Shown: positions 7,500 to 59,049 of the stretch, piece by piece
Numbering within the stretch: the first letter of the stretch is position 1
Layout of the letters: each line of letters starts with the position of its first letter
Assembly: GCF_900163755.1 (NCBI RefSeq)
Contig: NZ_FUKI01000101.1
Location: forward strand, 1 to 64,000
Length of the DNA stretch: 64,000 bases
DNA from: Crenothrix polyspora
GTDB taxonomy: Bacteria; Pseudomonadota; Gammaproteobacteria; Methylococcales; Methylomonadaceae
Reading direction: 5' to 3'
The notes under the pieces: model-generated
Databases searched by the model: none
Told to the model about the DNA's origin: nothing
What the model saw: only the letters and a program-made list of their open reading frames with translations
Translations under genes and position numbers: made by a program

Positions 7500-9311
7500 T
7501 TAGCTTTTAGCGGCTCTTTTACGTTCGTTTTCAGTTAATAATTTTTTACGCAAGCGTATTGATTTTGGTGTAACTTCGACTAGCTCATCTTCAGCAATAA
7601 ATTCTAAAGCTTGTTCTAGCGTCATTTTTTGAATTCGCGCCAATACCAAACTTTCATCAGTACCTGAAGCACGCACGTTGGTTAATTGTTTGGGTTTACA
7701 CGGGTTAACGCACAAATCATTGCTGCGTGAATGCAAGCCGACCAACATGCCTTCATAAACTTCATCGGCATTGACTAACAGCAATTCACCGCGTTCTTGC
7801 AAAGGATGCAATGAATAAGTAACGGCTTTGCCAGCGACCATAGAAATCATGACACCACGCAGTCGATTACCGACTTCACCGGCTTTCATGGGGCCGTAAT
7901 GGTCGAAAACATGGTATAGCAAGCCTGAGCCTGACGTGGCGGTCATAAATTCGGTTTGGAAGCCAATCAAGCCGCGTGACGGCATCATATATTCCAAACG
8001 GATACGACCTTTGCCGTCGGGTACCATATTAGTCAAATCGCCTTTACGGTCGCCCAGTTTTTCCATAATGGTGCCTTGGTGGATTTCTTCCACTTCGATG
8101 GTCACCATTTCGAACGGTTCGCATTTTTTACCGTCAATTTCTTTTAGAATAACTTCAGGACGCGATACGCCCATTTCAAAGCCTTCGCGGCGCATGTTTT
8201 CAATTAAAACCGACAAATGCAATTCACCACGGCCAGAGACTTTAAACTTGTCTGGATCGCCAGTATCTTCAACGCGCAGTGCCACGTTGTGTTGCAATTC
8301 TTTATCTAAACGATCGCGGATTTGGCGGGTGGTGACATATTTGCCTTCTCTGCCAGCAAACGGTGAGTTATTCACCTGGAAAGTCATGGTGACCGTGGGT
8401 TCATCCACCATTAATGGCGGCATGATTTCTACTTTATCGGGATGACAGATAGTGTCAGATATTTCCAGTTTTTCAATACCGGCAAACGCAATGATGTCCC
8501 CGGCACGGGCTTCGGCCACTTCAACACGCTCCAGACCATGAAAACCATAGATTTGTAACATGCGGCCTTTACGTTCAACGCCTTCGCGGTTAACGATAGT
8601 CAGTTGTTGATTGGGTTTAATGCTGCCACGTTGAATACGGCCAATACCGATAACGCCCACATAGGTGTTGTAATCCAAGCTTGAAACCTGCATTTGAAAC
8701 GGGCCATCCATATCCACTGGCGGTGGACTGACTTTTTCAATAATGGTTTCAAATAAGGGGGTCATATCGCCACCGGTTACCGTGTGTTCTAAACCGGCGT
8801 AACCGTTGATAGCAGAGGCGTATACGATAGGGAAATCCAATTGTTCATCGGTAGCGCCTAGACGATCAAACAAATCGAAAGTTTGGTCAACCACCCATTC
8901 AGGACGTGCGCCAGGGCGGTCAATTTTATTGATGACGACAATCGGTTTAAGCCCTAAAGCAAAGGCTTTTTGGGTGACAAAACGGGTTTGTGGCATAGGG
9001 CCATCCACCGCGTCAACCAATAATAACACCGAGTCAACCATTGATAACACACGCTCCACTTCGCCACCAAAATCAGCATGGCCAGGGGTGTCAACAATAT
9101 TGATATGGTAGCCGTTCCAATCCAGCGCAGTATTTTTAGCCAGAATAGTGATACCGCGTTCTTTTTCAATATCATTGGAATCCATGATGCGTTCAGTTAC
9201 TTTGGTGTGCGCGGCAAACGTACCCGATTGTTGCAATAATTTATCAACCAAGGTGGTTTTACCGTGGTCAACGTGTGCAATAATTGCAATGTTTCTTAGT
9301 TTTTCAATCAC
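7500..9311 (-). CDS. bipA: Ribosome-associated translational GTPase BipA/TypA
   Basis: A 603-residue translational GTPase that acts in large-subunit assembly and stress or cold adaptation. The G motifs are all present: AHVDHGKTT (G1), RGITI (G2), DTPGHADF (G3), [10 protein letters not shown] (G4) and SAINGYAG (G5). Domain II follows (about 200-300), then EF-G-like domains III and V, and the BipA-specific C-terminal domain (from about residue 490). Length equals that of the family. It is preceded by about 300 bp with no recognised feature and lies downstream of the rhodanese gene on the same strand. Confidence 0.97.
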
Positions 9312-9611
9312 TTGTTGTACTCTACTGTTTTTAAAGGAGGGGTGGTGTGTTTGTCAGCACGGTTGTTATTTAACATTTGAAACGGTTAGATCTATCTAAT
9401 ACAGGGCTTTGTGTACTAAAAACGCACAAGTGTCTATCGATGTTAAATGCGAGGCGAGTGTTGAACCTAGCGTGTTGTCAGTGCAATACAGCATTATCTG
9501 GCCTGCAATGACGCGGGTTATCGATGTATTAGTGGATATATTTCAACATTTTGGACTAAGCCCGATGTTGCATTATTGAGACACAGCTATTATAGCAAAT
9601 AATGCGTGTGA
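9312..9611. other. Upstream region of bipA, no other feature recognised
   Basis: About 300 bp between the rhodanese and bipA genes, presumably holding the bipA promoter. A purine-rich TTTAAAGGAGG-like stretch lies immediately right of the bipA start in the complementary orientation, but no RNA gene or structured leader could be supported. Confidence 0.45.
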
Positions 9612-10004
9612 TTAACTTTGTTGCCAAGGTAAGCCAGAAAATCGCCAGCCCGCTTGGTTGCCACGGCGCTTGTGTGCGTCTAACGGACCTTCAAAACCAT
9701 CAGCGATGTTGATGAGGTGTTTATAACCTATAGCATCTAGCGCCAAAGCTGCATCTAATGAGCGTTGGCCACTGCGGCACAGTAATAAAATAGGGGTGGT
9801 GTAATCGGGCACGGTGTTGCTAACTTCGTTGATAAAATTATTATTGAGTTGCCAGTCGGGAGCTTCTTTCCAGGCAATATGTACAGCGCCGAGCGGATGA
9901 CCGACAAACAGATGTTCCATTTTGGTACGCACGTCGACAATCACTGCCGTAGGGTCACGTTGTAATAAAGCCCAGCATTGTTGTGGTGTTAAATTTTCTA
10001 TCAT
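9612..10004 (-). CDS. Rhodanese-like sulfurtransferase
   Basis: A 130-residue single rhodanese domain. Residues 18-27 give VIVDVRTKMEH, the substrate-side motif of the fold, and the active-site loop CRSGQRS contains the persulfide-forming cysteine with a basic residue following, as in thiosulfate- or polysulfide-handling family members. The tail GFEGPLDAHKRRGNQAGWRFSG is typical of small cytosolic rhodaneses of gammaproteobacteria. It is monocistronic. The acceptor is unknown. Confidence 0.85.
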   Translation of the reverse strand: MIENLTPQQCWALLQRDPTAVIVDVRTKMEHLFVGHPLGAVHIAWKEAPDWQLNNNFINEVSNTVPDYTTPILLLCRSGQRSLDAALALDAIGYKHLINIADGFEGPLDAHKRRGNQAGWRFSGLPWQQS

Positions 10005-10138
10005 AAACAGAAGCCTATGGGTTGTTTTGTCAAGGATATGCGGCGCAAGTGTATTGCACTGTTTGGTCGGCTATTATCGCAGTTATCAAGCACTGGTCAA
10101 GTAATCACAACAGATGTGATACTGCTGTTTTTGTTAGA

Positions 10139-45855: not shown

Positions 45856-46809
45856 ATGATTCATTCATCTTTTAAAAAACTAGCGCTGTGTTCATTCGTT
45901 AGCCTGTTTGCAAGCCAAGCTTACGCACACACCGGTGTAAGAGACCAAGTTGACGAAGGTAAGCCCAGTTTCAATGGCTTTACTATTGGCCATGGTTGCT
46001 CAGGCTCTGAAGGCGCGGCCTATGCGGAGCAATACCCTGTGCTTGGGCAATCTGCTGTATTTCCTTTGTTAGATAACGTGGTGTGGCGAAAAAATGGTGC
46101 AAAAACAATCGGTGGTGATGGTGGCAACGTCATTGAGGCGGGTACAACATTAAAATTAGGTGTAACAGGTTTTGCAGGCTTAAGTTCGGCTTTTCGCACT
46201 AGCCAAGAAATCGTCGATAGACTAGGCAATGTTCATGCTTTGCATTGGAGTAAAGGGGCAATGGAACCTAAATTAAACACGGTTACACCGTTTAAAATAA
46301 CTGCGCCACTGATTGCTGATAACTGTGTAAAAAGCTTAAAAGTGCGCATTGGGGTTATCAATTGGTGTGATTTGGGTAGAAATGCGGCTACTGATGCAAA
46401 AGGGCCGTATTTACAACCCAAAGATGCCTTTGGCGATACAGTACCCAGAGTGACAGGCTTTGATAACGGCGGAATACAGCGTAATGTACCGGGTGCAAGT
46501 GTGTATACCAAAATGCCAGCGGGTAATGGCGATAATAACCGTGCAGATTGGTGGTTCCCAGTGCTAGAAGGTGGCAGCAAATTGTATAACGATGTAGATT
46601 TATTGCAAAAAGATACTCCTGCAACAGCCACTGCCGCCGCCAGCCCTGCTTTTTGGACAACAATGACGATTAATAATAGTGCTGCTGATATTGCTAAGTG
46701 TACAGGTACGCCGGTGGATGTAAGCGTTGAGCCTTTGGGGGTAGATTTTGATACTTACTTAACCGCGCGCAACACACAACCCTTTACCAAAGGCAGTATA
46801 AATTTCTAA
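45856..46809 (+). CDS. Exported protein, predicted mature N-terminal His (YcnI-like)
   Basis: A 317-residue secreted protein. The signal peptide ends SQAYA and the predicted mature chain begins HTGVRDQ, so the first mature residue is His. The segment FNGFTIGHGCSGSEG resembles the HGC motif of YcnI/DUF1775 copper-binding proteins, whose N-terminal His binds copper. A second part has WCDLGRN and the C-terminal half is not recognised. It is followed, after 129 bp, by another small exported protein that also begins with His. Copper binding is inferred from the N-terminus and is unproven. Confidence 0.7.
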   Translation: MIHSSFKKLALCSFVSLFASQAYAHTGVRDQVDEGKPSFNGFTIGHGCSGSEGAAYAEQYPVLGQSAVFPLLDNVVWRKNGAKTIGGDGGNVIEAGTTLKLGVTGFAGLSSAFRTSQEIVDRLGNVHALHWSKGAMEPKLNTVTPFKITAPLIADNCVKSLKVRIGVINWCDLGRNAATDAKGPYLQPKDAFGDTVPRVTGFDNGGIQRNVPGASVYTKMPAGNGDNNRADWWFPVLEGGSKLYNDVDLLQKDTPATATAAASPAFWTTMTINNSAADIAKCTGTPVDVSVEPLGVDFDTYLTARNTQPFTKGSINF

Positions 46810-46938: not shown

Positions 46939-47400
46939 ATGAAAAACTTTTTTAAAAGCGTAATGTTAATTATGGGGCTGATGACTGTTGCCGACTGTGT
47001 ATTAGCGCATAGCCAAACCGGTAGCCTGGGTAAAAAAACCACAGGTGCAGCGGCAACAGATGTTTATCTCATTAATTGTTTTGATGATGAAAGTGGTGCA
47101 GGGATACCTAACAAAATTTTTGTTCATGTTAAAGACAATGCGCCTAAGTTAGCTTCAGAAATAAGTGTGCAGATTATTAAAAGTGGATTAGCCAGTGTAC
47201 CGAGTATTGATAAAGTTGATGCTGATGCCGGTTACAGTCCGGCTGCCAGTTTGACAAAAGGTGCAGGGGATTACACTGTTTTAGTCAATAAATCTGCCAC
47301 CACCGCAAAAGGGCTAGAGAACTATGCGCTTGAGTTTCATTGTCAATCCGCTAGTGGGGTACATACCGGTACAGAATGGACGATGACACAAAACCAATAG
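46939..47400 (+). CDS. Small exported protein, predicted mature N-terminal His
   Basis: A 153-residue protein with a signal peptide ending DCVLA and a mature chain beginning HSQTGSLG. Two cysteines (INCFDDE and LEFHCQS) may pair, and the late FHC...VHTGTEW adds further His. The fold looks like a small beta-sandwich. No family is recognised. It lies directly downstream of the protein at 45856 and may be cotranscribed. Confidence 0.7.
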   Translation: MKNFFKSVMLIMGLMTVADCVLAHSQTGSLGKKTTGAAATDVYLINCFDDESGAGIPNKIFVHVKDNAPKLASEISVQIIKSGLASVPSIDKVDADAGYSPAASLTKGAGDYTVLVNKSATTAKGLENYALEFHCQSASGVHTGTEWTMTQNQ

Positions 47401-49378: not shown

Positions 49379-49569
49379 GGAACGCGCACGAAATAACTTG
49401 AGCAAGTTCATGCTTCGACAGGCTCAGCACGAACGGTGGTGGCGTTTAAGTTGTTCAAGTTATTTCATGCACGTTCCTTAGGGCAGTTACAGCCACCGTT
49501 CGTGCTGAGTTTGTCGAAGCATGAACGGCACACTTCGACAAGCTCAGTGCGAACGGTTACGCTGTAACT
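49379..49569. repeat. Truncated family-1 element with family-3 insertion
   Basis: 49379-49477 is the 99-bp family-3 palindrome, and 49478-49569 is the TTAGGGCAGTTACAGC...GCTGTAACT core of family 1 without its outer ends. The left flank (TCTACTAA) is not the family-1 start, so the outer left end was lost or never present. It is 98 bp shorter than the copy at 45075. Confidence 0.8.
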
Positions 49570-50136
49570 AACGGTAACTCAGAGGTTTTTCACGCAAAAT
49601 TTCATATCAAAAAATAACAATAATGTCAATAGTAATAATGCACTTTATTTGAGGTAATAATACCATTGACTTTATTTTTGTATGCTCTAACATCTAAAAT
49701 AACGTACTTATTTACTTACAGGTATAAAAAATGTAAACTGAATTTACACAAATTAGCTGAACAGTCGTATTAATCATTAAAATATATTAATTTAATGTCA
49801 AATTGTTAATGGTTAGCAGGGTTTTTTTGTGTACATAGTTTAAATTAGCGACTAAGCGTTCTTTAGTTTCCTGTAATAGCCTCGTATAATCGGGAGTAGT
49901 TTATATAAAAATATTATTTATTTGTTAAATTTATTTACTAAGTGTAGTAATTAGCATGTTTTATGTTAAGTAAAACACTGATCCTTATAGGGGAGTTAGT
50001 GCATAAATACAGCGTTTTCACTATTAATACATACGCTCTAGGTTTTAAGATCAGTCTCTGCCTGATCCTCATTTAGGTGTAATCAACTTGATATAAAAAT
50101 GCTGTATAAAAATTAAGCCAAACAATAGGGAGATGT
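49570..50136. other. AT-rich upstream region of the diaminobutyrate cluster
   Basis: About 570 very AT-rich bases. It contains no recognisable gene and, near 50009-50024, the tract ACAGCGTTTTCAC, which matches one end of the family-1 MITE and may be a solo remnant. The cluster promoter is expected here but no boxes can be supported. Confidence 0.45.
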
Positions 50137-50186: not shown

Positions 50187-51530
50187 ATGGCTGTTTCTAT
50201 CAAGTTGGTAAGCAATGAAATCATAATACCCTACAAAACAAAATTAGAACCTGTCTCAGCAGTAACTGAGTTAAGCGCATTCCATTTGGAGTCTCAGGCA
50301 CGCAGCTATTGCCGTCACTTCGACACGACATTTGTTAGCGCCTCTGGCAGCTACATGACAGATGCAACAGGCCGCCACTTTATTGATTTCTTAGGTGGAG
50401 CTTCCGCTCTCAACTACGGCCACAATGACCCCGACATGGTTCAAGGGCTTATTAACTATCTTGTTGCAGGGGGCGTAGCGCATAGCCTAGACTTGCACAC
50501 TTGGGCTAAAGCACGCTTTATTGATGCCTTTAATCACCTTATACTCGCCCCCCGTTCGTTATCGTACCGACTTCAATTTACAGGACCTACAGGTACGAAC
50601 GCTGTTGAAGCCGCGCTCAAGCTGGCTCGAAAGGTAACAGGCCGCACCGAAATCATTGCTTTCACCCAGGGGTTTCATGGTATGTCACTGGGGGCGCTCG
50701 CCGCCACCGGAAACCGCCATCACCGGATGGGCTCTTCTATCCAGCTTCCAGGAGTCATGCGGGCTTTTTACGATGGCTATTTTGGTGCCGAAATAGACAC
50801 GGCGGCCATGTTGGATAAAGCCCTCAGCGACCCATCAAGCGGCTTTGATGCCCCAGCGGCTATCTTGCTGGAAACTGTGCAAGGAGAAGGTGGGCTGAAT
50901 ACGGCTTCCGCCGCGTGGATGAAGAAGATTGCCGATATTGCAAAACGGCACGGTGCCTTGCTTATTATTGATGATATCCAGGCTGGCTGTGGTCGCACCG
51001 GCAGCTTCTTCAGCTTCGAGCCACTGGGCATAGACCCCGATATTGTCGTGCTGTCCAAGTCTTTGTCTGGCTTTGGCTTACCGCTGTCGCTGGTGTTGAT
51101 TCGTCCGGAACACGACCAATGGTTACCCGGCGAACACAATGGCACTTTCCGGGGCAACAATCACGCATTTGTGACAGCGACTGTCGCATTAGAAAAGTTC
51201 TGGGCTAACAATGCACTGATGTCTGATGTACAAAGACGCGGCACTTTGATCGTCGATGCGCTTGAAGAAATGGCAAACTATGTTCCAGGTTCACGTATTA
51301 AAGGACGCGGTATGATGCTGGGTCTCGATGTGGGTGATGGCGCACTGGCTGCAAAAATCTCAAAACGTTGTTTTGCTGATGGTCTTATTATTGAGACAGC
51401 AGGCGCTCGTGGTCAAGTCGTCAAAATTTTGGCACCTTTAACAACACCTGACGCAGTACTTGCCGAAGGCTTGTCGATTGTAAATGTCGCCATCGCCAAG
51501 GAGATGTCCAAGCTAGGAGCGAAGTCATGA
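50187..51530 (+). CDS. L-2,4-diaminobutyrate:2-oxoglutarate aminotransferase
   Basis: A 447-residue class III PLP aminotransferase of the EctB/Dat type, which makes L-2,4-diaminobutyrate from aspartate semialdehyde. The PLP lysine K291 lies in LSKSLSGFGLPLSLVL, and PGEHNGTFRGNNHAFVTA near residue 315-330 is the signature of EctB/Dat. The ATG at 50187 has GGAG upstream. The gene overlaps the NRPS gene by 4 bp. No ectA or ectC (ectoine) genes are present, so I infer that it supplies monomer to the synthetase. Confidence 0.9.
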   Translation: MAVSIKLVSNEIIIPYKTKLEPVSAVTELSAFHLESQARSYCRHFDTTFVSASGSYMTDATGRHFIDFLGGASALNYGHNDPDMVQGLINYLVAGGVAHSLDLHTWAKARFIDAFNHLILAPRSLSYRLQFTGPTGTNAVEAALKLARKVTGRTEIIAFTQGFHGMSLGALAATGNRHHRMGSSIQLPGVMRAFYDGYFGAEIDTAAMLDKALSDPSSGFDAPAAILLETVQGEGGLNTASAAWMKKIADIAKRHGALLIIDDIQAGCGRTGSFFSFEPLGIDPDIVVLSKSLSGFGLPLSLVLIRPEHDQWLPGEHNGTFRGNNHAFVTATVALEKFWANNALMSDVQRRGTLIVDALEEMANYVPGSRIKGRGMMLGLDVGDGALAAKISKRCFADGLIIETAGARGQVVKILAPLTTPDAVLAEGLSIVNVAIAKEMSKLGAKS

Positions 51531-54500
51531 GCCGCGCCTATGAGAGAACTCGCAGTGCAAACATCCAGATAGAGGGTGAGTCGGCAAACTATTCACCTTC
51601 TTGGCAACTGAAGCACGTCCCTATTCGCGGCCCTGTGGAAGCGGATAATTGCCAAGAAGCCGCCGTATTAGTCAGTGCTCGTCATTGGAACAACGTCTAT
51701 CCAGTGGGCGAACGTTTCCACGATGTGTTTGAGCGTAGGTGTTTGCAATTTGGGGAGGCGGCTTACCGTCATCTTGCAATAGATTATGGTGAGGTCGCGG
51801 TTACTTACTCCGAAGTGCTTGATAGAGCCAATCGTCTTGCGCGATTCTTCGAAGCGCACGGTGTCACCGCTGGCGCACGCATTGCTCTGTTGCTTGATAG
51901 ATCTATTGATTCTTATGCGGCCGTGCTGGCGGCATCAAAAATCGGCGCAGCCTATGTGCCGCTAGACACCTCATTTCCGACCGACCGCATCCACTTTATG
52001 CTGGAGGATAGTACCGTCAGCGTGGTTATCACCTTGCGTGGTTTCGCCAATCGATTCACAGGAGTCAATGCGACAGTTTTATCATTGGATGCGTGTTATG
52101 ATGACATAGACGCACTTTCAGCAGCGCCGTTTAAACCGGTCATCAATCAAATAGCCACTGATCCGCTGGCCTATATTATTTATACGTCGGGTTCGACTGG
52201 CCGTCCTAAGGGTGTGCCTATCCGGCATTCAAGCATTTGTAATTTCATCCACATCGCATCGGCACTTTATGGCTATGTGCCATCGGATCGAGTCTATCAG
52301 GGCATGACGATTGCATTCGATTTCTCGTTTGAGGAATTGTGGGTTCCCCTTGCCGCAGGGGCTACGCTGGTGCCCGCGCCGTCACAAGCCAAGTTGATCG
52401 GTAGCGACTTGACGGATTTTCTTACCACCCGTAATGTAACAGCGCTGTGCTGCGTCCCTACTTTGTTGGCAACCCTTGAACCCGTTCTACCACAACTGCG
52501 TTTCCTGCTGGTTTCCGGCGAAGCGTGCCCTAGCGATGTTGTCGCCAAGTGGCTTATACCTGGGCGACGTGTGTTGAATGCCTATGGGCCAACCGAGACC
52601 ACAGTTACCGCTACTTGGTCGTTACTTGAACCGAACAAACCTATTACCATCGGCGGGCCATTGCCCACTTATTCCGTGGTCATTATTGATCCCGATACAC
52701 GACAGGCGCTTGAAGCTGGGGAAGCCGGTGAGATTTGCATAGCGGGTGTTGCATTATGTGACGATTATGTGAACCGGCCAGATCAGACGGCGCGGGCTTT
52801 CATCCCTGACTTTTTAGGTTTACCAGACAACCCTTGTGGGCGGCTGTACCGCACCGGAGATTTGGGGCGCATTAATGCCAGCAACGAAATTGAATACCTT
52901 GGCCGGATAGACACCCAGGTGAAAATTCGCGGTTACCGTATCGAACTGTCCGAGATAGAATCAGTAGCGCGGGGTGTACACGGTGTTGATCAAGTGGTCG
53001 TACAACCGTTCGATCCCGATGGTACTGGCACAATACTTGCCGCTTATCTCACCGCAATGCGAGCTGACGAACAACTCGACATGGCTCATATTGATGCTGC
53101 GCTGCGTGCGGCACTGCCAACTTACATGGTGCCGGCTTACTACAGCCAGTTAGATGAGATTCCGCTTTTAGCCAGTGGCAAGGCTGACCGGAACGCATTA
53201 CAACCGCCGTCAGGTAGCAAATTTTCCGCAACCAGCGCTGAATTAGTCGAGCCGCGAACGGCACGGGAAGGTGAACTTGCCTTGTTGTTAGCCGATGTTT
53301 TAAAACGCGAGCAGGTTTCTGTGACGGCCAATTTTTTTGATGAACTGGGTGCCGATTCCTTGAGCATGGCAGCTTACGCCACGGTTATTCGCAAACAACT
53401 GGGTTTGCGCCGGGTTTCTATGCGGCAGCTTTATGAACACCCGTCGATAGCTGATCTTGCCATCGCCTTGGATAAGCTATCGATAGTGGCTAAGGTTAGC
53501 CCCTCCCCTGAGGCAGAGGTAACCAAGCCAGATGCGGTCAAGCCAGAGGAAGCCGTATCCGCAGAACCCTTCAGGCCAGCAGGTGTAAAGCGCGCCGCCG
53601 AACGTCACGGTGTAGCGCCGCACATAGCCTCGAATGCCGCACGTTTCGCAACGGCTATTGCCCAGATTGCCGTCTATGCCATCGCATTGTTTTTAAGCGA
53701 GTTGGCGATAGTGGCGGCTTTCCATTGGGTTAGCGCCGGTGTAGGCTTTGTTGATATCTACCTGCGTACGGTTTTGTCAACAAGCAGTATTTTTTTTGGC
53801 ACAGCCGCCATATTGATTGCCACCAAGTGGCTGGTCATGGGCCGGTTTACTACCGAACCTATTCCGCTGTGGAGCTTGAAATACCTGCGCTTTTGGATTG
53901 CGCGGATGGCTATTCAGGGAAATCCGTTAATCCTTTTTGTCGGTACATCCATCTATTCAGATTACTTACGCTTGCTCGGTGTGCGGGTTGGCAAGGGGGC
54001 TATTATTCTCACCCCTACACCGCCTATTTGTACTGACCTTGTCAGTATCGGCGCGCACAGTGTTATCCGGCAAGATGCCTTGCTCCCAGGTTATACCGCC
54101 TGTAATGGCTACCTGTATCCTGGCACTATCAGTATCGGTTCCAATGTCCTCATTTGTGAAGCCACCTTACTTGATATCTTCACCGCCATCGGTGACGGCA
54201 GCCAGCTTGGCACTACATCGGCGCTACTTGAGGGACAGGCTGTTCCGGCAGGTTGTGTTTACCAGGGGGCACCCGCAGAACCGTCAAAATCTAATTTTGA
54301 CCGTGTTGCGTCTTGTCCGGTGTCAAAGTCGCGTGAGATTTTTTATACAACCTTGCAACTTCTTACCCATTGCCTTGTTGCAGTGCCTGCTACAGTAATG
54401 GTTGTGTCACTGTTGTTTTATGCAATCATTGCGGCAGTCGGCCTGAATATACATTTGAGTGGATGGATGTTACTTGAGAATGCGGCCATTAGCGCAGGTG

Positions 54501-55840
54501 TAATCTACTTCGGTAATTTGCTTCTGCTCATAATCGTAGTCCTTACTGTGCCCCGTGTCTTAAATTTGTTTGTTAAGCCGGAGGTGGCACACCCGCTTTA
54601 CGGGTTACAGTATGAGCTAGCAAAGCTCATCGCACGCTTCAGCAACAACCAACTGCTTAACAAAGTATTCGGCGACAGCTCGATGATCATTTACTGGCTG
54701 TCCGCCGTTGGTTACGATTTGTCACGCAGCACCCAGACCGGCTCTAACTTTGGTATCGAACAAAGCCATCACAACCCGTTTCTGTGTGAGTTCAATCGTA
54801 ACACGCTGATATCAGACGGCTTGAAAATGTTGAATATGGAGGTATCGTCCACGTCGTTTATTATGCGTAAGGTTGCCATGCCAGCGGATACTTACGTAGG
54901 TAACTCAATCCACTATCCGGCCGATGCCCGCTTGGGTGCTAATTGCCTGATAGCCACAAAAGCCGCCCTGCCGATTGATGGCGAGTTGCGTACCAATATT
55001 GGCCTGCTGGGTTCACCGTCTTTCGAGATACCACGCACCGTAGCGCGTGATCATTGCTTTGATCACTTTAAACAGCCCGCCATTCTTAAACGGCAATTGG
55101 TAAAAAAACTGCGCTCGAATCTGGTTACCCTGGGGTTATATTTTCTAAGCTCTTGCATGATTGTCAGCTTGGGTCTATTGTTGAGTTATGGCTGTTTTAA
55201 ACTGTTCGGTGTATCTGGCGCGGACGGTTCAGGTTCGACCATCCTAATAACCACGCTGGCATTAACCGTTGCATCCCTGGCTTTTATTTTTCTAACGGTA
55301 GTGTTCGCTATTTTTTGTGAACGTTTGGTGTGCAAATTTCGTCGTCTACAACCGTTGTATTGCTCATTGTACGATCCTTTATTTTGGGCGCACGAACGCT
55401 TCTGGAAATTTCACTACACTGATGGTTTGCTGACCTTATTCAATGGTACGCCTATGAAGCCATTTTTCCGTAGATTGCAAGGCGCTAAGATTGGCCGCGG
55501 TGTCTTTGACGACGGCGCAGGACTTTCTGAGCCTAGCATGGTGGAAATTGGCGACAATTGTACATTGAATTTCTCCTCTCATTTTCAGCCCCATTCACTT
55601 GAGGACGGTACGTTCAAGTCCGACCTGATTAAAATGGGCGCACGCTGTACGTTGGGGACTGGCGCTTTCGTGCATTACGCAACGGTGATACATGACGACA
55701 CCGTGCTTGAAGCCGATGCTTTCCTGATGAAAGGCTCGGTGATGGAGCAAGGCACGCGCTGGCTCGGAAATCCTGCGCGCGAAGCTTCCACGACACGGGA
55801 CATCACATTAATCATTAAAAATGGAGCAAAGAAATGGTAA
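51527..55840 (+). CDS. Pls-like single-module membrane NRPS, homopolyamino-acid synthetase
   Basis: A 1437-residue protein. The adenylation domain (about residues 60-560) has YTSGSTGRPKG (219-229), FDFSFEE (264-270) and NAYGPTETT. The carrier domain has the phosphopantetheine serine S611 in LGADSLSMA. There is no ordinary condensation or thioesterase domain. From residue 705 come three pairs of membrane segments (about 706-770, 945-1011, 1205-1268), each followed by a soluble domain, of which the first (about 805-930) and third (about 1285-1425) show hexapeptide left-handed-beta-helix repeats. This A-T-(TM2-domain)x3 layout is that of epsilon-poly-lysine synthetase Pls. With diaminobutyrate aminotransferase next to it, I infer poly-diaminobutyrate. 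The product is unproven. Confidence 0.88.
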   Translation: MSRAYERTRSANIQIEGESANYSPSWQLKHVPIRGPVEADNCQEAAVLVSARHWNNVYPVGERFHDVFERRCLQFGEAAYRHLAIDYGEVAVTYSEVLDRANRLARFFEAHGVTAGARIALLLDRSIDSYAAVLAASKIGAAYVPLDTSFPTDRIHFMLEDSTVSVVITLRGFANRFTGVNATVLSLDACYDDIDALSAAPFKPVINQIATDPLAYIIYTSGSTGRPKGVPIRHSSICNFIHIASALYGYVPSDRVYQGMTIAFDFSFEELWVPLAAGATLVPAPSQAKLIGSDLTDFLTTRNVTALCCVPTLLATLEPVLPQLRFLLVSGEACPSDVVAKWLIPGRRVLNAYGPTETTVTATWSLLEPNKPITIGGPLPTYSVVIIDPDTRQALEAGEAGEICIAGVALCDDYVNRPDQTARAFIPDFLGLPDNPCGRLYRTGDLGRINASNEIEYLGRIDTQVKIRGYRIELSEIESVARGVHGVDQVVVQPFDPDGTGTILAAYLTAMRADEQLDMAHIDAALRAALPTYMVPAYYSQLDEIPLLASGKADRNALQPPSGSKFSATSAELVEPRTAREGELALLLADVLKREQVSVTANFFDELGADSLSMAAYATVIRKQLGLRRVSMRQLYEHPSIADLAIALDKLSIVAKVSPSPEAEVTKPDAVKPEEAVSAEPFRPAGVKRAAERHGVAPHIASNAARFATAIAQIAVYAIALFLSELAIVAAFHWVSAGVGFVDIYLRTVLSTSSIFFGTAAILIATKWLVMGRFTTEPIPLWSLKYLRFWIARMAIQGNPLILFVGTSIYSDYLRLLGVRVGKGAIILTPTPPICTDLVSIGAHSVIRQDALLPGYTACNGYLYPGTISIGSNVLICEATLLDIFTAIGDGSQLGTTSALLEGQAVPAGCVYQGAPAEPSKSNFDRVASCPVSKSREIFYTTLQLLTHCLVAVPATVMVVSLLFYAIIAAVGLNIHLSGWMLLENAAISAGVIYFGNLLLLIIVVLTVPRVLNLFVKPEVAHPLYGLQYELAKLIARFSNNQLLNKVFGDSSMIIYWLSAVGYDLSRSTQTGSNFGIEQSHHNPFLCEFNRNTLISDGLKMLNMEVSSTSFIMRKVAMPADTYVGNSIHYPADARLGANCLIATKAALPIDGELRTNIGLLGSPSFEIPRTVARDHCFDHFKQPAILKRQLVKKLRSNLVTLGLYFLSSCMIVSLGLLLSYGCFKLFGVSGADGSGSTILITTLALTVASLAFIFLTVVFAIFCERLVCKFRRLQPLYCSLYDPLFWAHERFWKFHYTDGLLTLFNGTPMKPFFRRLQGAKIGRGVFDDGAGLSEPSMVEIGDNCTLNFSSHFQPHSLEDGTFKSDLIKMGARCTLGTGAFVHYATVIHDDTVLEADAFLMKGSVMEQGTRWLGNPAREASTTRDITLIIKNGAKKW

Positions 55841-56748
55841 GCCAATCCATTACTGCTATCGACATGCCATCGGCTGATGAGTTCGTCGAAAATTACATCG
55901 CGAAGAATCAACCCGTTATTGTAAAAGGCCTGGATTTTGATGCCGACCAATTGAAGCCGGAGGCCTTAAAAGCCAGTCTTGGCGACTTAACAGCACTGCT
56001 GTACGGTAGCCTGTTTGATCTGGAGGATATCCTTAGCCTCAGCGACTATATGGACGATTGGTTCAACTTAACGGGCGCGATGGAAGAAAACGTGCCCTAT
56101 GTGCGCTGGTATAACAAGCTAAAAGATGTTGACTTTGCCTGGGGCGATGAAGCCTTTCAGCGTTTGGCTGCCGTCTGGCGGACACCGCACTGTCTGCCCA
56201 AGGCTGATTTTTTGGTGCCGGTTAGTGCAGCGGGCGCGGGTACAAATCCGGTATGCGATGCGTTTCCGTACCGTGGCCTGCTGGTTGCAGCGCGGGGGGC
56301 GCGTACCCGCTTGCACCGGGATCCGTTTTGCAGTGATGCCGTGGTTTGCCAGTTTTATGGCACTAAAGAAGTCGCCTTGTACCGGCCAGAACGTGCGGAT
56401 GAACTGACTAAGGCATCCGATGGTACGTCTTTTGGTGGCTTTGTTGATGTCCGCGAGGACAAGCTGGATAGTCTTTCGGCAATACCGGACTATCATGGCT
56501 TTTTGCGCCCAGGGGAGATGGTTTACATTCCGCACGGTTGGTTGCATGATGTCATCGTGACCGAAGATTCCGTTTCTATCACCTGGAACTTCGTGCATCG
56601 TCAGGGCGCTAAAGAGTTCTCCCGCTATTTGGCCAGTCAATCAAACGGTGATCCTGAGTTTGAAATATTGCAGTATTTCCATCGGCCTGTAGGTTCGACG
56701 AAGCTTACCGCGAGTGAGATTTCTAACTACCATTTTGCAGCGAGTTAG
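55834..56748 (+). CDS. Cupin/JmjC-type Fe(II) oxygenase of the cluster
   Basis: A 304-residue protein of the cupin-8/JmjC fold. The metal triad appears to be H161 and D163 in TRLHRDPF, with distal H238 in IPHGWLHDV. The rest of the jelly-roll (QFYGTKEVALYRP, FLRPGEMVYIPHGW, VSITWNFV) follows. Such enzymes hydroxylate amino-acid side chains or proteins. The gene overlaps the synthetase by 7 bp, so the likely substrate is the carrier-bound monomer or the polymer. It could instead act on a protein of the system. Confidence 0.8.
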   Translation: MVSQSITAIDMPSADEFVENYIAKNQPVIVKGLDFDADQLKPEALKASLGDLTALLYGSLFDLEDILSLSDYMDDWFNLTGAMEENVPYVRWYNKLKDVDFAWGDEAFQRLAAVWRTPHCLPKADFLVPVSAAGAGTNPVCDAFPYRGLLVAARGARTRLHRDPFCSDAVVCQFYGTKEVALYRPERADELTKASDGTSFGGFVDVREDKLDSLSAIPDYHGFLRPGEMVYIPHGWLHDVIVTEDSVSITWNFVHRQGAKEFSRYLASQSNGDPEFEILQYFHRPVGSTKLTASEISNYHFAAS

Positions 56749-57451
56749 ATTTGGCAAGGGCGACCGCACCCGTCACGACGATAGTTCCTAGATAATAATA
56801 GAAAACCGAAAAATGAAACGGATCAAGCTCTTTTATGTCATGTTCGATCCGCAACCAATCTGTGCGGCAATCCACGGTCGTTGGCGCAGGTATCCGCAGC
56901 GTAATTTCCTCGAACTCGATAAAGCGGCGGGTGAGAGGGAATTGGGCTTTATAGACAGCCTCTTTAGCGCTGAACAGACAGGTTGCCATTTGATCTCTTA
57001 CCAATGGGGATTGTTGGTTAAGGTATTCAATTTCTGGTGTCGTGAATACAGTTGGCCAAATAGCAGGATTGCGTCTTCCGCACTGCTCGGCATCAATGCC
57101 TATTCCGGCTGGGTGTTGCCCTGTTTTCGGCAGCCATACGACAGCGGCGGCAAACTTACCCGTGTGTGTCATCGACCCCATTACACCCTCAGGCCAAAGG
57201 GGTTCACGATCAATGCCGCATGCAATGGGCGTAGGCAGTTGCTTGAGATTAACCAGGCCACGCTGAGCCAAAATTCGACCAACGATGAATTCCTGGCGAC
57301 GAGCTGTATTACCGGTATAAAATTTCATGTCGTTATGGCTTTGACTATCAACAGTTTCGATATCTAAAGCCCAATGTACGGCAATCAAACGATCGCAACC
57401 GGCAACGATAAATTGCTGTTCAAGCTCTGGAAAGCGCGTATCAGTGGTCAT
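56723..57451 (-). CDS. 4'-phosphopantetheinyl transferase, EntD/Sfp type
   Basis: A 242-residue transferase that activates carrier domains. It has GIGIDAEQC (Mg-binding Asp and Glu) and FSAKEAVYKAQFPL. It reads leftward, overlapping the 3' end of the oxygenase gene by 26 bp and sharing its 5' end with the barrel protein gene on the other strand. Its natural target is presumably S611 of the synthetase. Its start has TAGG 6 bp upstream. Confidence 0.92.
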   Translation of the reverse strand: MTTDTRFPELEQQFIVAGCDRLIAVHWALDIETVDSQSHNDMKFYTGNTARRQEFIVGRILAQRGLVNLKQLPTPIACGIDREPLWPEGVMGSMTHTGKFAAAVVWLPKTGQHPAGIGIDAEQCGRRNPAIWPTVFTTPEIEYLNQQSPLVRDQMATCLFSAKEAVYKAQFPLTRRFIEFEEITLRIPAPTTVDCRTDWLRIEHDIKELDPFHFSVFYYYLGTIVVTGAVALAKSNSLQNGS

Positions 57452-58885
57452 CGTTTACCTACACGTAGCAATCTTATTTATTACCTTTTGGCGTTTTTTA
57501 TTCTCTATGGCAACACTACTTTAGAGGTAAATGCAGCTGATAAGTATAATAAAATGGGTACTAAATCCCAAGAAAACAGCCATAAAATCGACGATGACGA
57601 TGACGATGATGACAGTGACGATGATGACAGTGACGATGATGACGACAGCAAAGACAGCAAAGACAGCAAAGACAGTAAAATCGATAAAGTAGACAAAGCA
57701 GGTAAAGTAAGCAAGGGCAATACGGATAACAAAGTTGCTGGTGGCGGCAAGGATGATAAAAAAACAGAAGATGGTAATGATGATGACGATGAATCAGCAG
57801 AGCCAGGTCAGCTTTCAGGTTTTATCAATAGTGAGGTTGAGGCGGCACAAGATTGGTTAAGTGACAGCGAGGGAGATTCTCAAGCGGGATTGTCTGCCAA
57901 TATGTATGGCTTGGTAAATCTGCAACTAACTGCCGGTTTAAAACTCGGTACGGAATTAAGTTTTGAAACTGAGGGGGATGGTGAGTATCTCGCGCTTGAA
58001 AGCCCTTCGTTATTTTTAAAAACCCTGAATTTTTCATACTCTGGCGAATTAGGTGGCATTGGCTTCGGGAAAGTAAATCACTTCAATGAAGACAATCTTG
58101 TCGATTCGATTTGGGAAAGATCTGTCAATTTATTTATCAGTTTCCCTGGCAGTGATTTAGACCTTAGCGAAACCATAGGTGTGCGTGCGTGGCTGAATCT
58201 TGGCCATTTTCTGGATATTGATCACACCCTTTATGGTGGCGTGTTCTTTCAAGATACTACACTCAATCGTTCTGTTTTTACCCAGCGTGCCCCATCGAAT
58301 ACTAATGATAATAATCTCTCCATCACCGGCAAACCCAATAATTGGGTGATTAGCCTACACGGTGATGAGCTACCTTATTTACCCGATTGGGAATACAGTG
58401 TCGGCGTTGTCAAACAATTACCCGGTATTGATGATTTAAATAGCGAACTGAGTGTTTTCTCCGGTATATACGGGGAATTCGAGCTGGACAATGACATGGA
58501 AATTTCACCTTTCGGTGAATTTGTGTATCGGGATGGCGCAAATGGCCAAAACCAAAGCGCGGCATCTGTTTTGCTGAGTTTGTCCGTTGACACTAAACCG
58601 TGGATATTTGGCATCTCTTATTCGCACCGCCACCTTATCGACCATGATAACGATAATGCAGTCACTGATGACAGTGATGCGCAATTGTTCGCCAGTTATT
58701 ATTTTGAATCAGGCCTTTCTGTCGATGTAGGCTATCAGTTTCTAAAACAAGACAGCGAAACAGCGCACGCCATTAACCTCGCTGTCAGTATTCCTTTTGA
58801 ATTCATGACAAATCTTTATGGAACAGACCAAGCCGCCGCAAAAGGACTTACCCGCAATAGCATGAAAAGAAAAATTCGTCGTTAA
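57374..58885 (+). CDS. Outer-membrane barrel protein with poly-aspartate stretch
   Basis: Up to 503 residues. A hydrophobic segment (about 34-55) serves as signal sequence. Residues 73-92 are almost all Asp (runs of 8, 4 and 5 Asp separated by Ser), then come four SKD repeats and a Lys/Gly-rich linker to about 150. The rest is a series of amphipathic beta strands ending AINLAVSIPFEF, as in porin-like channels. The frame starts inside the divergent transferase gene, by 78 bp from this ATG or 39 bp from the in-frame TTG at 57413, so the true start is uncertain. I infer an export channel for the polycation, with the acidic stretch as a binding patch. The barrel fold is supported by composition only. 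Confidence 0.7.
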   Translation: MYGNQTIATGNDKLLFKLWKARISGHRLPTRSNLIYYLLAFFILYGNTTLEVNAADKYNKMGTKSQENSHKIDDDDDDDDSDDDDSDDDDDSKDSKDSKDSKIDKVDKAGKVSKGNTDNKVAGGGKDDKKTEDGNDDDDESAEPGQLSGFINSEVEAAQDWLSDSEGDSQAGLSANMYGLVNLQLTAGLKLGTELSFETEGDGEYLALESPSLFLKTLNFSYSGELGGIGFGKVNHFNEDNLVDSIWERSVNLFISFPGSDLDLSETIGVRAWLNLGHFLDIDHTLYGGVFFQDTTLNRSVFTQRAPSNTNDNNLSITGKPNNWVISLHGDELPYLPDWEYSVGVVKQLPGIDDLNSELSVFSGIYGEFELDNDMEISPFGEFVYRDGANGQNQSAASVLLSLSVDTKPWIFGISYSHRHLIDHDNDNAVTDDSDAQLFASYYFESGLSVDVGYQFLKQDSETAHAINLAVSIPFEFMTNLYGTDQAAAKGLTRNSMKRKIRR

Positions 58886-58920: not shown

Positions 58921-59049
58921 TACAGCGTTTTCAATTTAGGACAGTTACAGCCACCGTTCGTGCTGAGCTTGTTGAAGCATGAACGGCACACTTCGACAAG
59001 CTCAGTGCGAACGGTTACGCTGTAACTATTGAGCTGTGAAAACGCTGTA
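58921..59049. repeat. MITE-like element, family 1, copy 4
   Basis: A 129-bp copy with ends TACAGCGTTTTCA and TGAAAACGCTGTA and intact core, the most complete uninterrupted copy. The TA at both ends is the likely target duplication. It lies between the barrel gene and the end of pilE. Confidence 0.88.

Follow-up and report, generated by a model that had tools for sequence, protein, structure and literature searches.

A predicted poly-diaminobutyrate cluster of Crenothrix polyspora with a linked JmjC-type oxygenase and an acidic-tailed, barrel-like neighbour

A stretch of 64,000 nt from contig NZ_FUKI01000101.1 of Crenothrix polyspora, referred to here as the window, carries five open reading frames (ORFs) at positions 50187-58885, confirmed at the coordinates previously given: an EctB-type aminotransferase (P0001), a single-module homopolymer synthetase of the Pls/PosA family (P0002), an oxygenase (P0003), a phosphopantetheinyl transferase (PPTase; P0004) and a secreted barrel-like protein with an acidic tail (P0005; Table 1). 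On balance we favour the reading that this locus makes gamma-linked poly-L-2,4-diaminobutyrate (poly-Dab), which the oxygenase hydroxylates and which is exported through the acidic-tailed, barrel-like protein. The observed basis of this reading is the gene set, the completeness of the domains, the type of the adenylation pocket, the conservation of linkage and the pattern of charge. In the proposed sequence of steps, the EctB-type enzyme would convert aspartate semialdehyde to diaminobutyrate (Dab), the neighbouring PPTase would prime the synthetase carrier, and the synthetase would adenylate Dab and load it on that carrier. Polymerisation would then take place at the inner membrane, where the membrane-bound C-terminal domain, by analogy with Pls and PosA, would join the Dab residues by isopeptide bonds into the gamma-linked polymer. 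The oxygenase would act on Dab residues of the growing or finished polymer, probably hydroxylating C3; the poly-aspartate tail may capture the polycation in the periplasm and hand it to the pore, and the polycation would finally leave across the outer membrane via the barrel-like protein.

It is, to our knowledge, an open question how Gram-negative bacteria export membrane-active polycations across both membranes while staying unharmed. A wider proposal, namely that polyanion-tailed porins are Gram-negative homopolymer exits in which the charge is conserved while several barrel families without detectable mutual similarity have been recruited, and that the oxygenase clade makes an undescribed hydroxylated poly-Dab, is offered tentatively and as somewhat short of probable. 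Should the acidic-porin pattern hold, it would offer an export mechanism open to testing, mark poly-Dab producers in genome mining and lead to hydroxylated poly-Dab, which would be a new natural polymer.

The synthetase and its likely monomer

By its domain content, P0002 is a complete Pls/PosA-family synthetase, with one complete adenylation domain (AMP-binding, 251 bits), one complete carrier domain (PP-binding, 44 bits) and, at residues 711-1417, a match to TIGR02353 of 523.4 bits (cut-off 423.1). The Pls-like architecture proposed in the earlier note was thereby borne out, the C-terminal half proving to be a full Pls/PosA domain; the same domain order led us to reject an ordinary multimodular nonribosomal peptide synthetase. 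A crude hydropathy method places eight peaks in six regions, near residues 714/748, 950/998 and 1199/1244, and a three-pair arrangement of membrane segments is described for Pls in passages of PMC10522769. Pls, the epsilon-poly-L-lysine synthetase, shares with the window enzyme the order of adenylation domain, carrier and membrane polymerisation domain (adenylation-domain match to 7wew, E 1e-64) but differs in the Ala at code position 2 and in its lysine substrate (PMC10522769, in excerpt). PosA of Acinetobacter baumannii, which makes delta-poly-ornithine according to the same excerpts, is likewise gammaproteobacterial and has a single module whose C-terminal domain is of the same kind; it differs in its code, DMEHNGTVSK, and in taking ornithine.

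The ten positions of the pocket code were located by eye with the help of GrsA motifs and an alignment, and as a check on the extraction two loci of the class sample (L059, L060) read the published PosA code. P0002 reads DFECLSAVTK, with Asp at position 1 and Glu at position 3, a code of the short cationic diamino-acid type, and examination of the pocket gave no sign of an unrelated amino acid, in line with what had been supposed from the locus alone. A first code set of 53 rows comprised 23 D[FY]E codes with Ser at position 6 (Ser6), nine such codes with Gly at that position (Gly6) and 21 rows left out of the Ser6 count, namely one duplicate (L080), three misaligned Actinomycetospora rows, seven other codes and ten DIWQSTADDK rows (eight Streptomyces ORFs, L075 and L115), which do not read as a Pls/PosA-family code. 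An added phylum-sample set of 27 loci, five of which gave no code, contributed six further Gly6 rows. An EctB-like gene (>45% identity) lies within 5 kb of 17 of the 23 Ser6 synthetases as opposed to none of the 15 Gly6 synthetases, and the Ser6 rule thus offers a simple guess at the monomer. Three plasmid Ser6 codes stand outside this count: two (L193, L194) are accompanied by ectB, and one (L195), from an actinomycete, has no annotated ectB within 6 kb. Codes DLEDIGSVVK or DLEDLGTVVK were also met at nine same-phylum loci (L176-L179, L181, L182, L184, L186, L188), and a similar code is noted in passages of PMC10522769.

The aminotransferase matches TIGR02407 at 577.2 bits (cut-off 552.2) and is the sole close EctB-type copy in the genome, the next best reaching 33% identity. 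EctA was not found in the genome (best score 12.4 bits against a cut-off of 120.6; EctC was not searched), and the ectoine pathway was therefore rejected as the role of the EctB-type enzyme. Because of the sole close EctB copy, the missing EctA and the linkage of EctB to Ser6 codes, Dab is the likely monomer of P0002, an assignment that previously leaned on the monomer gene and is strengthened here; poly-Dab is accordingly a likely but unproven product of the locus. A polymer of 2,3-diaminopropionate or another diamino acid, with the EctB-type enzyme in some other role, seems quite improbable. Phe at code position 2 is assigned to diaminopropionate and diaminobutyrate synthetases alike in excerpts of PMC10522769, and six of the 23 Ser6 synthetases, some on short contigs, have no EctB-like neighbour in reach; yet the EctB-type gene overlaps the synthetase gene, the contrast between Ser6 and Gly6 loci and the missing EctA point to Dab, and a Dab transaminase gene, dat, likewise belongs to the context of a published actinomycete poly-Dab synthetase gene (PMC8117764, in part). 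This Streptomyces context (pldA, dat, ask) for gamma-poly-L-diaminobutanoate resembles the window in joining a Dab transaminase gene to a Pls-family synthetase. It differs in that the five window genes include no aspartate kinase and have the oxygenase, the PPTase and the barrel-like protein instead, and in that the window host is Gram-negative.

Distribution of the synthetase and the linked oxygenase

The synthetase domain occurs in two of the 237 genomes of the family (E <= 1e-40). TIGR02353 exceeds its curated cut-off in 8/369 genomes of the class sample and 26/398 of the phylum sample, Crenothrix polyspora being counted in each, and in one of 14 control genomes, Corynebacterium glutamicum; a genome scan for synthetase loci returned 46 loci. 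The earlier note had held that a gammaproteobacterial homopolymer synthetase would be new, which is wrong in general given these counts and the published PosA (PMC10522769, in excerpt). The combination of synthetase and aminotransferase is of a known kind, whereas the links to an oxygenase and to an acidic porin look new. A literature search met no outer-membrane partner or hydroxylase of Pls/PosA synthetases, weak evidence of absence since most subscription journals lay outside its coverage.

A quick tree was built of 50 C-terminal domains, 10 of which (including L089 and L056) are of unusual letter make-up. In it the window synthetase forms one clade (Shimodaira-Hasegawa-like approximate likelihood ratio test, SH-aLRT, 100) with that of Roseovarius aestuarii (L073), those of two alphaproteobacterial metagenome-assembled genomes (MAGs; L074, L107) and that of an actinobacterial MAG (L089). 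Among 57 loci scored, an oxygenase homologue is present at exactly the five loci of this clade, the other four being 52-69% identical to P0003. The succession of aminotransferase, synthetase, oxygenase and PPTase genes, with the strands of the window, recurs in L073 and L074; the first three of these genes are present in L089, and the synthetase and oxygenase genes in L107. Three genes absent from the mechanical ORF lists were recovered by tblastn: the oxygenases of L074 and L089 and the aminotransferase of L089. Between the Roseovarius cluster and the window, identity is 70% for the aminotransferase, 58% for the synthetase, 68% for the oxygenase and 38% for the PPTase. The oxygenase is thus well supported as a linked gene of the synthetase, and this single branch of oxygenase-linked synthetases suggests a hydroxylated poly-Dab. 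What remains new of the earlier note's proposal is the hydroxylase and the outer-membrane component, for the second of which the support comes from the pattern rather than from structure. With neither the oxygenase nor the barrel region as query was a plasmid match obtained. The Roseovarius locus L073 also encodes an Alginate_exp-family protein (1106-2467; 3e-28), some 3 kb upstream of the cluster and separated from it by two-component-like genes. Elsewhere, a gene read by eye as GNAT-like directly follows the synthetase at L087, L093, L096, L100, L196 and L197, annotated as GNAT in the plasmids L196 and L197, and possibly serves polymer acetylation or resistance.

P0003 matches Cupin_8 at 62 bits (cut-off 27.4), and the HxD...H triad H161, D163 and H238 is invariant in an alignment of the five synthetase-linked homologues. 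Among solved structures, JMJD5 and JMJD6 come closest to it in sequence (E about 2e-4 to 2e-3; JMJD5 2e-4). JMJD5, JMJD6 and JMJD7, as their entry names partly indicate, act on arginine or lysine residues in proteins, which makes a residue of a cationic polymer a sensible guess at the substrate of P0003. The likeness consists of weak sequence matches, fold matches from a poor model and the triad; P0003 differs in being bacterial and in its linkage to a homopolymer synthetase. Four loci at which no oxygenase turned up (L093, L098, L105, L106) carry the same code as the window; this speaks for the loading of plain Dab and a later hydroxylation. The reverse order, in which the oxygenase acts on free Dab before loading and the synthetase polymerises 3-hydroxy-Dab, would account for the restriction of the oxygenase to one synthetase clade and for the Leu at code position 7 in three of its five members. 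It is nevertheless rather unlikely, since L074 as well as the window shares its code with the four loci just named and the nearest solved relatives work on residues within proteins.

Acidic barrel-like neighbours and a possible export route

At its N-terminus P0005 has a hydrophobic stretch and then a poly-Asp region; the C-terminal part is rich in strands, and the protein is read as a putative outer-membrane barrel. Its closest relative (44% identity) directly follows the synthetase in a Methylomonas MAG (L056), where the acidic tract is poly-Glu/Asp and Porin_4 scores 17.6 bits, below the cut-off of 27. The P0005 family occurs in the same two of the 237 family genomes as the synthetase. In the tree, the Methylomonas synthetase falls in a Thiotrichaceae clade and not in that of the window, so that two different synthetases of the family have the same kind of partner. 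Both methanotroph proteins share a conserved basic C-terminus (KIRR; window 58811-58885) that follows their last strand-like segment.

In the class sample, members of the P0005 family were found in 6/369 genomes, and these together with the Methylomonas relative gave seven proteins whose N-terminal parts were compared, counting after residue 30. In the three members from synthetase genomes this part spans 115-197 aa with a net charge of -25 to -36; in the four from genomes without a synthetase over the cut-off it spans 31-37 aa with a net charge of -4 to -9. One of the three long-tailed members (G191) has barrel and synthetase on separate contigs. A second barrel, acidic-tailed and of the P0005 family (L131, 8527-10134), was seen on another contig of a Thiotrichales genome that carries an ectB-Pls locus (L062, identical to L080), and a relative without synthetase (L134, 8909-10060), with a His/Asp-rich N-terminus, lies downstream of genes read by eye as znuCB-like zinc-uptake genes; the tail may match the cargo within this family.

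The barrel-like gene might alternatively be an ordinary native porin beside an inserted cassette, with no functional link. The G+C content is 49-52% from the aminotransferase to the PPTase gene, 44.5% over the window and 42.5% in the barrel-like gene, which fits a horizontally acquired cassette next to a gene of native composition; moreover, the P0005 family was not found in the examined stretches of the alphaproteobacterial clusters, and relatives occur in synthetase-free genomes beside genes read by eye as transporters. This alternative is held to be unlikely, as the family accompanies the synthetase in the two family genomes beside enzymes of two clades and the long acidic tail is confined to synthetase genomes among the seven members compared.

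Acidity was also surveyed among 318 mechanical ORFs of at least 200 aa around 37 Gram-negative loci. The most acidic 25-residue windows reached net negative charges of 25 (L056), 17 (the window), 16 (L102), 12 (L062), 12 (L084) and 11 (L098), and, with the exception of L084, these six ORFs encode porins or barrel-like proteins next to the synthetase block. The L102 protein is a Pfam Porin_4 member (2e-32); the L062 protein, which has no Pfam match, is taken for a barrel from a reading of its sequence. The Thiotrichales barrel-like proteins showed no homology to P0005, either by BLASTP with L062 or by all-against-all BLASTP and phmmer. Over 64 Gram-negative loci, a count that leaves out 20 loci taken as actinobacterial (including L089, which has an EctB-like gene) and the duplicates L080 and L092 (the latter identical to L056), secreted ORFs that reach 11 or more net negative charges are present within 3 kb at 5/15 EctB-linked loci but at only 1/49 others (Fisher 0.002, relatedness ignored). 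The single exception is L056, whose contig is cut off upstream, so that an aminotransferase gene may have been lost from view. Without L084, the barrel-like cases number 4/15; at a looser cut-off of 9 the counts are 6/15 and 3/49. Both cut-offs are reported; they were chosen after the ranking had been inspected. Signal peptides were called by a rough hydrophobicity criterion. The contigs of L056, L085, L091 and L116 end close to the synthetase, so that a missing neighbour there means little. The 26 new phylum-sample genomes (27 loci) showed no EctB-like neighbour and no acidic secreted ORF, and in two order-level relatives with Gly6 codes (G051, G054) a 264-aa secreted protein without an acidic tract directly follows the synthetase.

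Two Skermanella plasmids (L193, L194) carry the row ectB, Pls/PosA synthetase, hypothetical gene, S41 peptidase and porin. Their porins match Porin_4 (4e-32, 2e-31) and bear Glu/Asp tracts whose net negative charge per 25 residues is 22 in one and 24 in the other. They share with P0005 the acidic tract within an ectB-Pls gene row; they differ from it in having no BLASTP similarity to it at E 0.01 and resemble the L102 porin instead (E 1e-7). The plasmid survey covered seven of 21 matching records, of which two were unannotated and unscored, and the gene table behind it describes itself as incomplete. Within 6 kb of the Phyllobacterium and Aureimonas plasmid loci, neither ectB nor a porin is annotated. 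An S41-family peptidase stands beside the barrel or porin at three Dab-type loci: L062 (Thiotrichales, 8836-10062), L193 (8588-9994) and L194 (8636-10015).

Conserved charge in differing barrel families is what would be expected if the tail binds a polycation, and the pattern as a whole supports P0005 as a candidate outer-membrane component of the synthetase. The main rival to export is self-protective capture, in which the barrel-like protein would act as a safety sponge that keeps the toxic polycation off the producer's envelope while release takes another route. Charge complementarity suits such binding as much as transport, and by Pfam and NCBIfam assignment no gene of the five stands out as serving immunity. 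We regard this rival as somewhat unlikely: the firm cases (L102, L193, L194) are annotated or Pfam-supported porins, whereas a sponge needs no pore, and the Skermanella porins have a second acidic region well inside the porin, after the first matched stretch.

Several observations weigh against the favoured reading of a poly-Dab that is hydroxylated and exported through the barrel-like protein. The pocket code alone cannot separate Dab from 2,3-diaminopropionate. For the oxygenase, the AlphaFold model (five alignment rows) is unreliable, with a mean predicted local distance difference test score (pLDDT) of 43.6; a fold search with it gave JMJD6, JMJD5, TYW5 and JMJD7, and in the first 48 of the 50 matches listed the TM-scores are at most 0.41 (query length) and the root mean square deviations above 12 Å, so that the search adds nothing beyond the sequence match. 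For P0005, no Pfam family was matched at E 0.01, and the AlphaFold model (two alignment rows) is likewise unreliable (mean pLDDT 39.8), with many predicted strands. Its gene is outside any single overlapping operon with the synthetase, and barrels of its family also occur in genomes without a synthetase. In the acidity survey, the L084 neighbour is an SseB-like protein and no barrel, the barrel match of L098 is sub-threshold (17.4 against 28.7 bits), and at the stricter cut-off no acidic secreted neighbour is seen beside 10 of the 15 EctB-linked Gram-negative loci. Three of the four short-tailed P0005-family members are mutually 75-84% identical and count for little more than one; the Skermanella porins are 78-93% identical to each other, and such kinship leaves fewer independent cases than the counts suggest.

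Gene arrangement, host and flanking sequence

The first three genes are tied together by overlaps of 4 bp (51527-51530, aminotransferase/synthetase) and 7 bp (55834-55840, synthetase/oxygenase), exactly as had been described. The PPTase gene lies tail to tail with the oxygenase gene, with an overlap of 26 bp, and the barrel-like gene overlaps the 5' end of the PPTase gene. The overlapping operon therefore comprises the first three genes only: of the adjacent five-gene cluster of the earlier note, all ORFs are in place, but the minus-strand PPTase gene breaks the row and the barrel-like gene is no simple continuation of the operon.

Table 1. Coordinates of the genes and domains of the cluster in the window
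Feature	Coordinates	Strand	Basis
EctB-type diaminobutyrate--2-oxoglutarate aminotransferase (P0001)	50187..51530	+	TIGR02407; monomer supply
Pls/PosA-family single-module synthetase (P0002): adenylation, carrier and C-terminal polymerisation domains	51527..55840	+	TIGR02353, AMP-binding, PP-binding
Adenylation domain, code DFECLSAVTK	51770..53200	+	AMP-binding; pocket extraction
Carrier domain, LGADSLS phosphopantetheine site	53282..53464	+	PP-binding; motif
C-terminal polymerisation domain, hydrophobic segments in three pairs	53657..55777	+	TIGR02353; hydropathy
JmjC/cupin_8 Fe(II)/2-oxoglutarate-type oxygenase (P0003)	55834..56748	+	Cupin_8; H161, D163, H238 in alignment
Sfp-type 4'-phosphopantetheinyl transferase (P0004)	56723..57451	-	4PPT_N, ACPS, motifs
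Secreted barrel-like protein (P0005), N-terminal acidic tail	57374..58885	+	44% identity to Methylomonas MAG protein; co-occurrence
Poly-Asp region, aa 66-140 of P0005	57569..57793	+	up to 17 net negative charges per 25 residues

P0004 scores 62 bits for 4PPT_N and 53 bits for ACPS and contains GIGIDAE and FSAKEAVYKA, which we take to be the usual Sfp motifs; two further members of the PPTase superfamily are encoded elsewhere in the genome. The assembly (3.92 Mb, 180 contigs) contains two matches to PF02461, the particulate methane/ammonia monooxygenase family, which, together with the Methylomonas MAG of the same family, points to a methanotroph of the Methylomonas family. Upstream of the aminotransferase gene, RNA folding was not notable (z = 1.07); a promoter scan stayed at chance level and a terminator scan below it.

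The cluster is flanked by a 93-nt palindromic element (49478-49570 and 58936-59028) whose two copies are 97% identical. The element was considered as the edges of a mobile element and rejected, as it is dispersed over the genome in at least 40 full-length copies of at least 96% identity (40 of 290 candidates scored) and is thus no marker of insertion. Further upstream, with no Pfam or NCBIfam match at E 0.01, two adjacent proteins encoded at 45856-46809 and 46939-47400 of the window look secreted.

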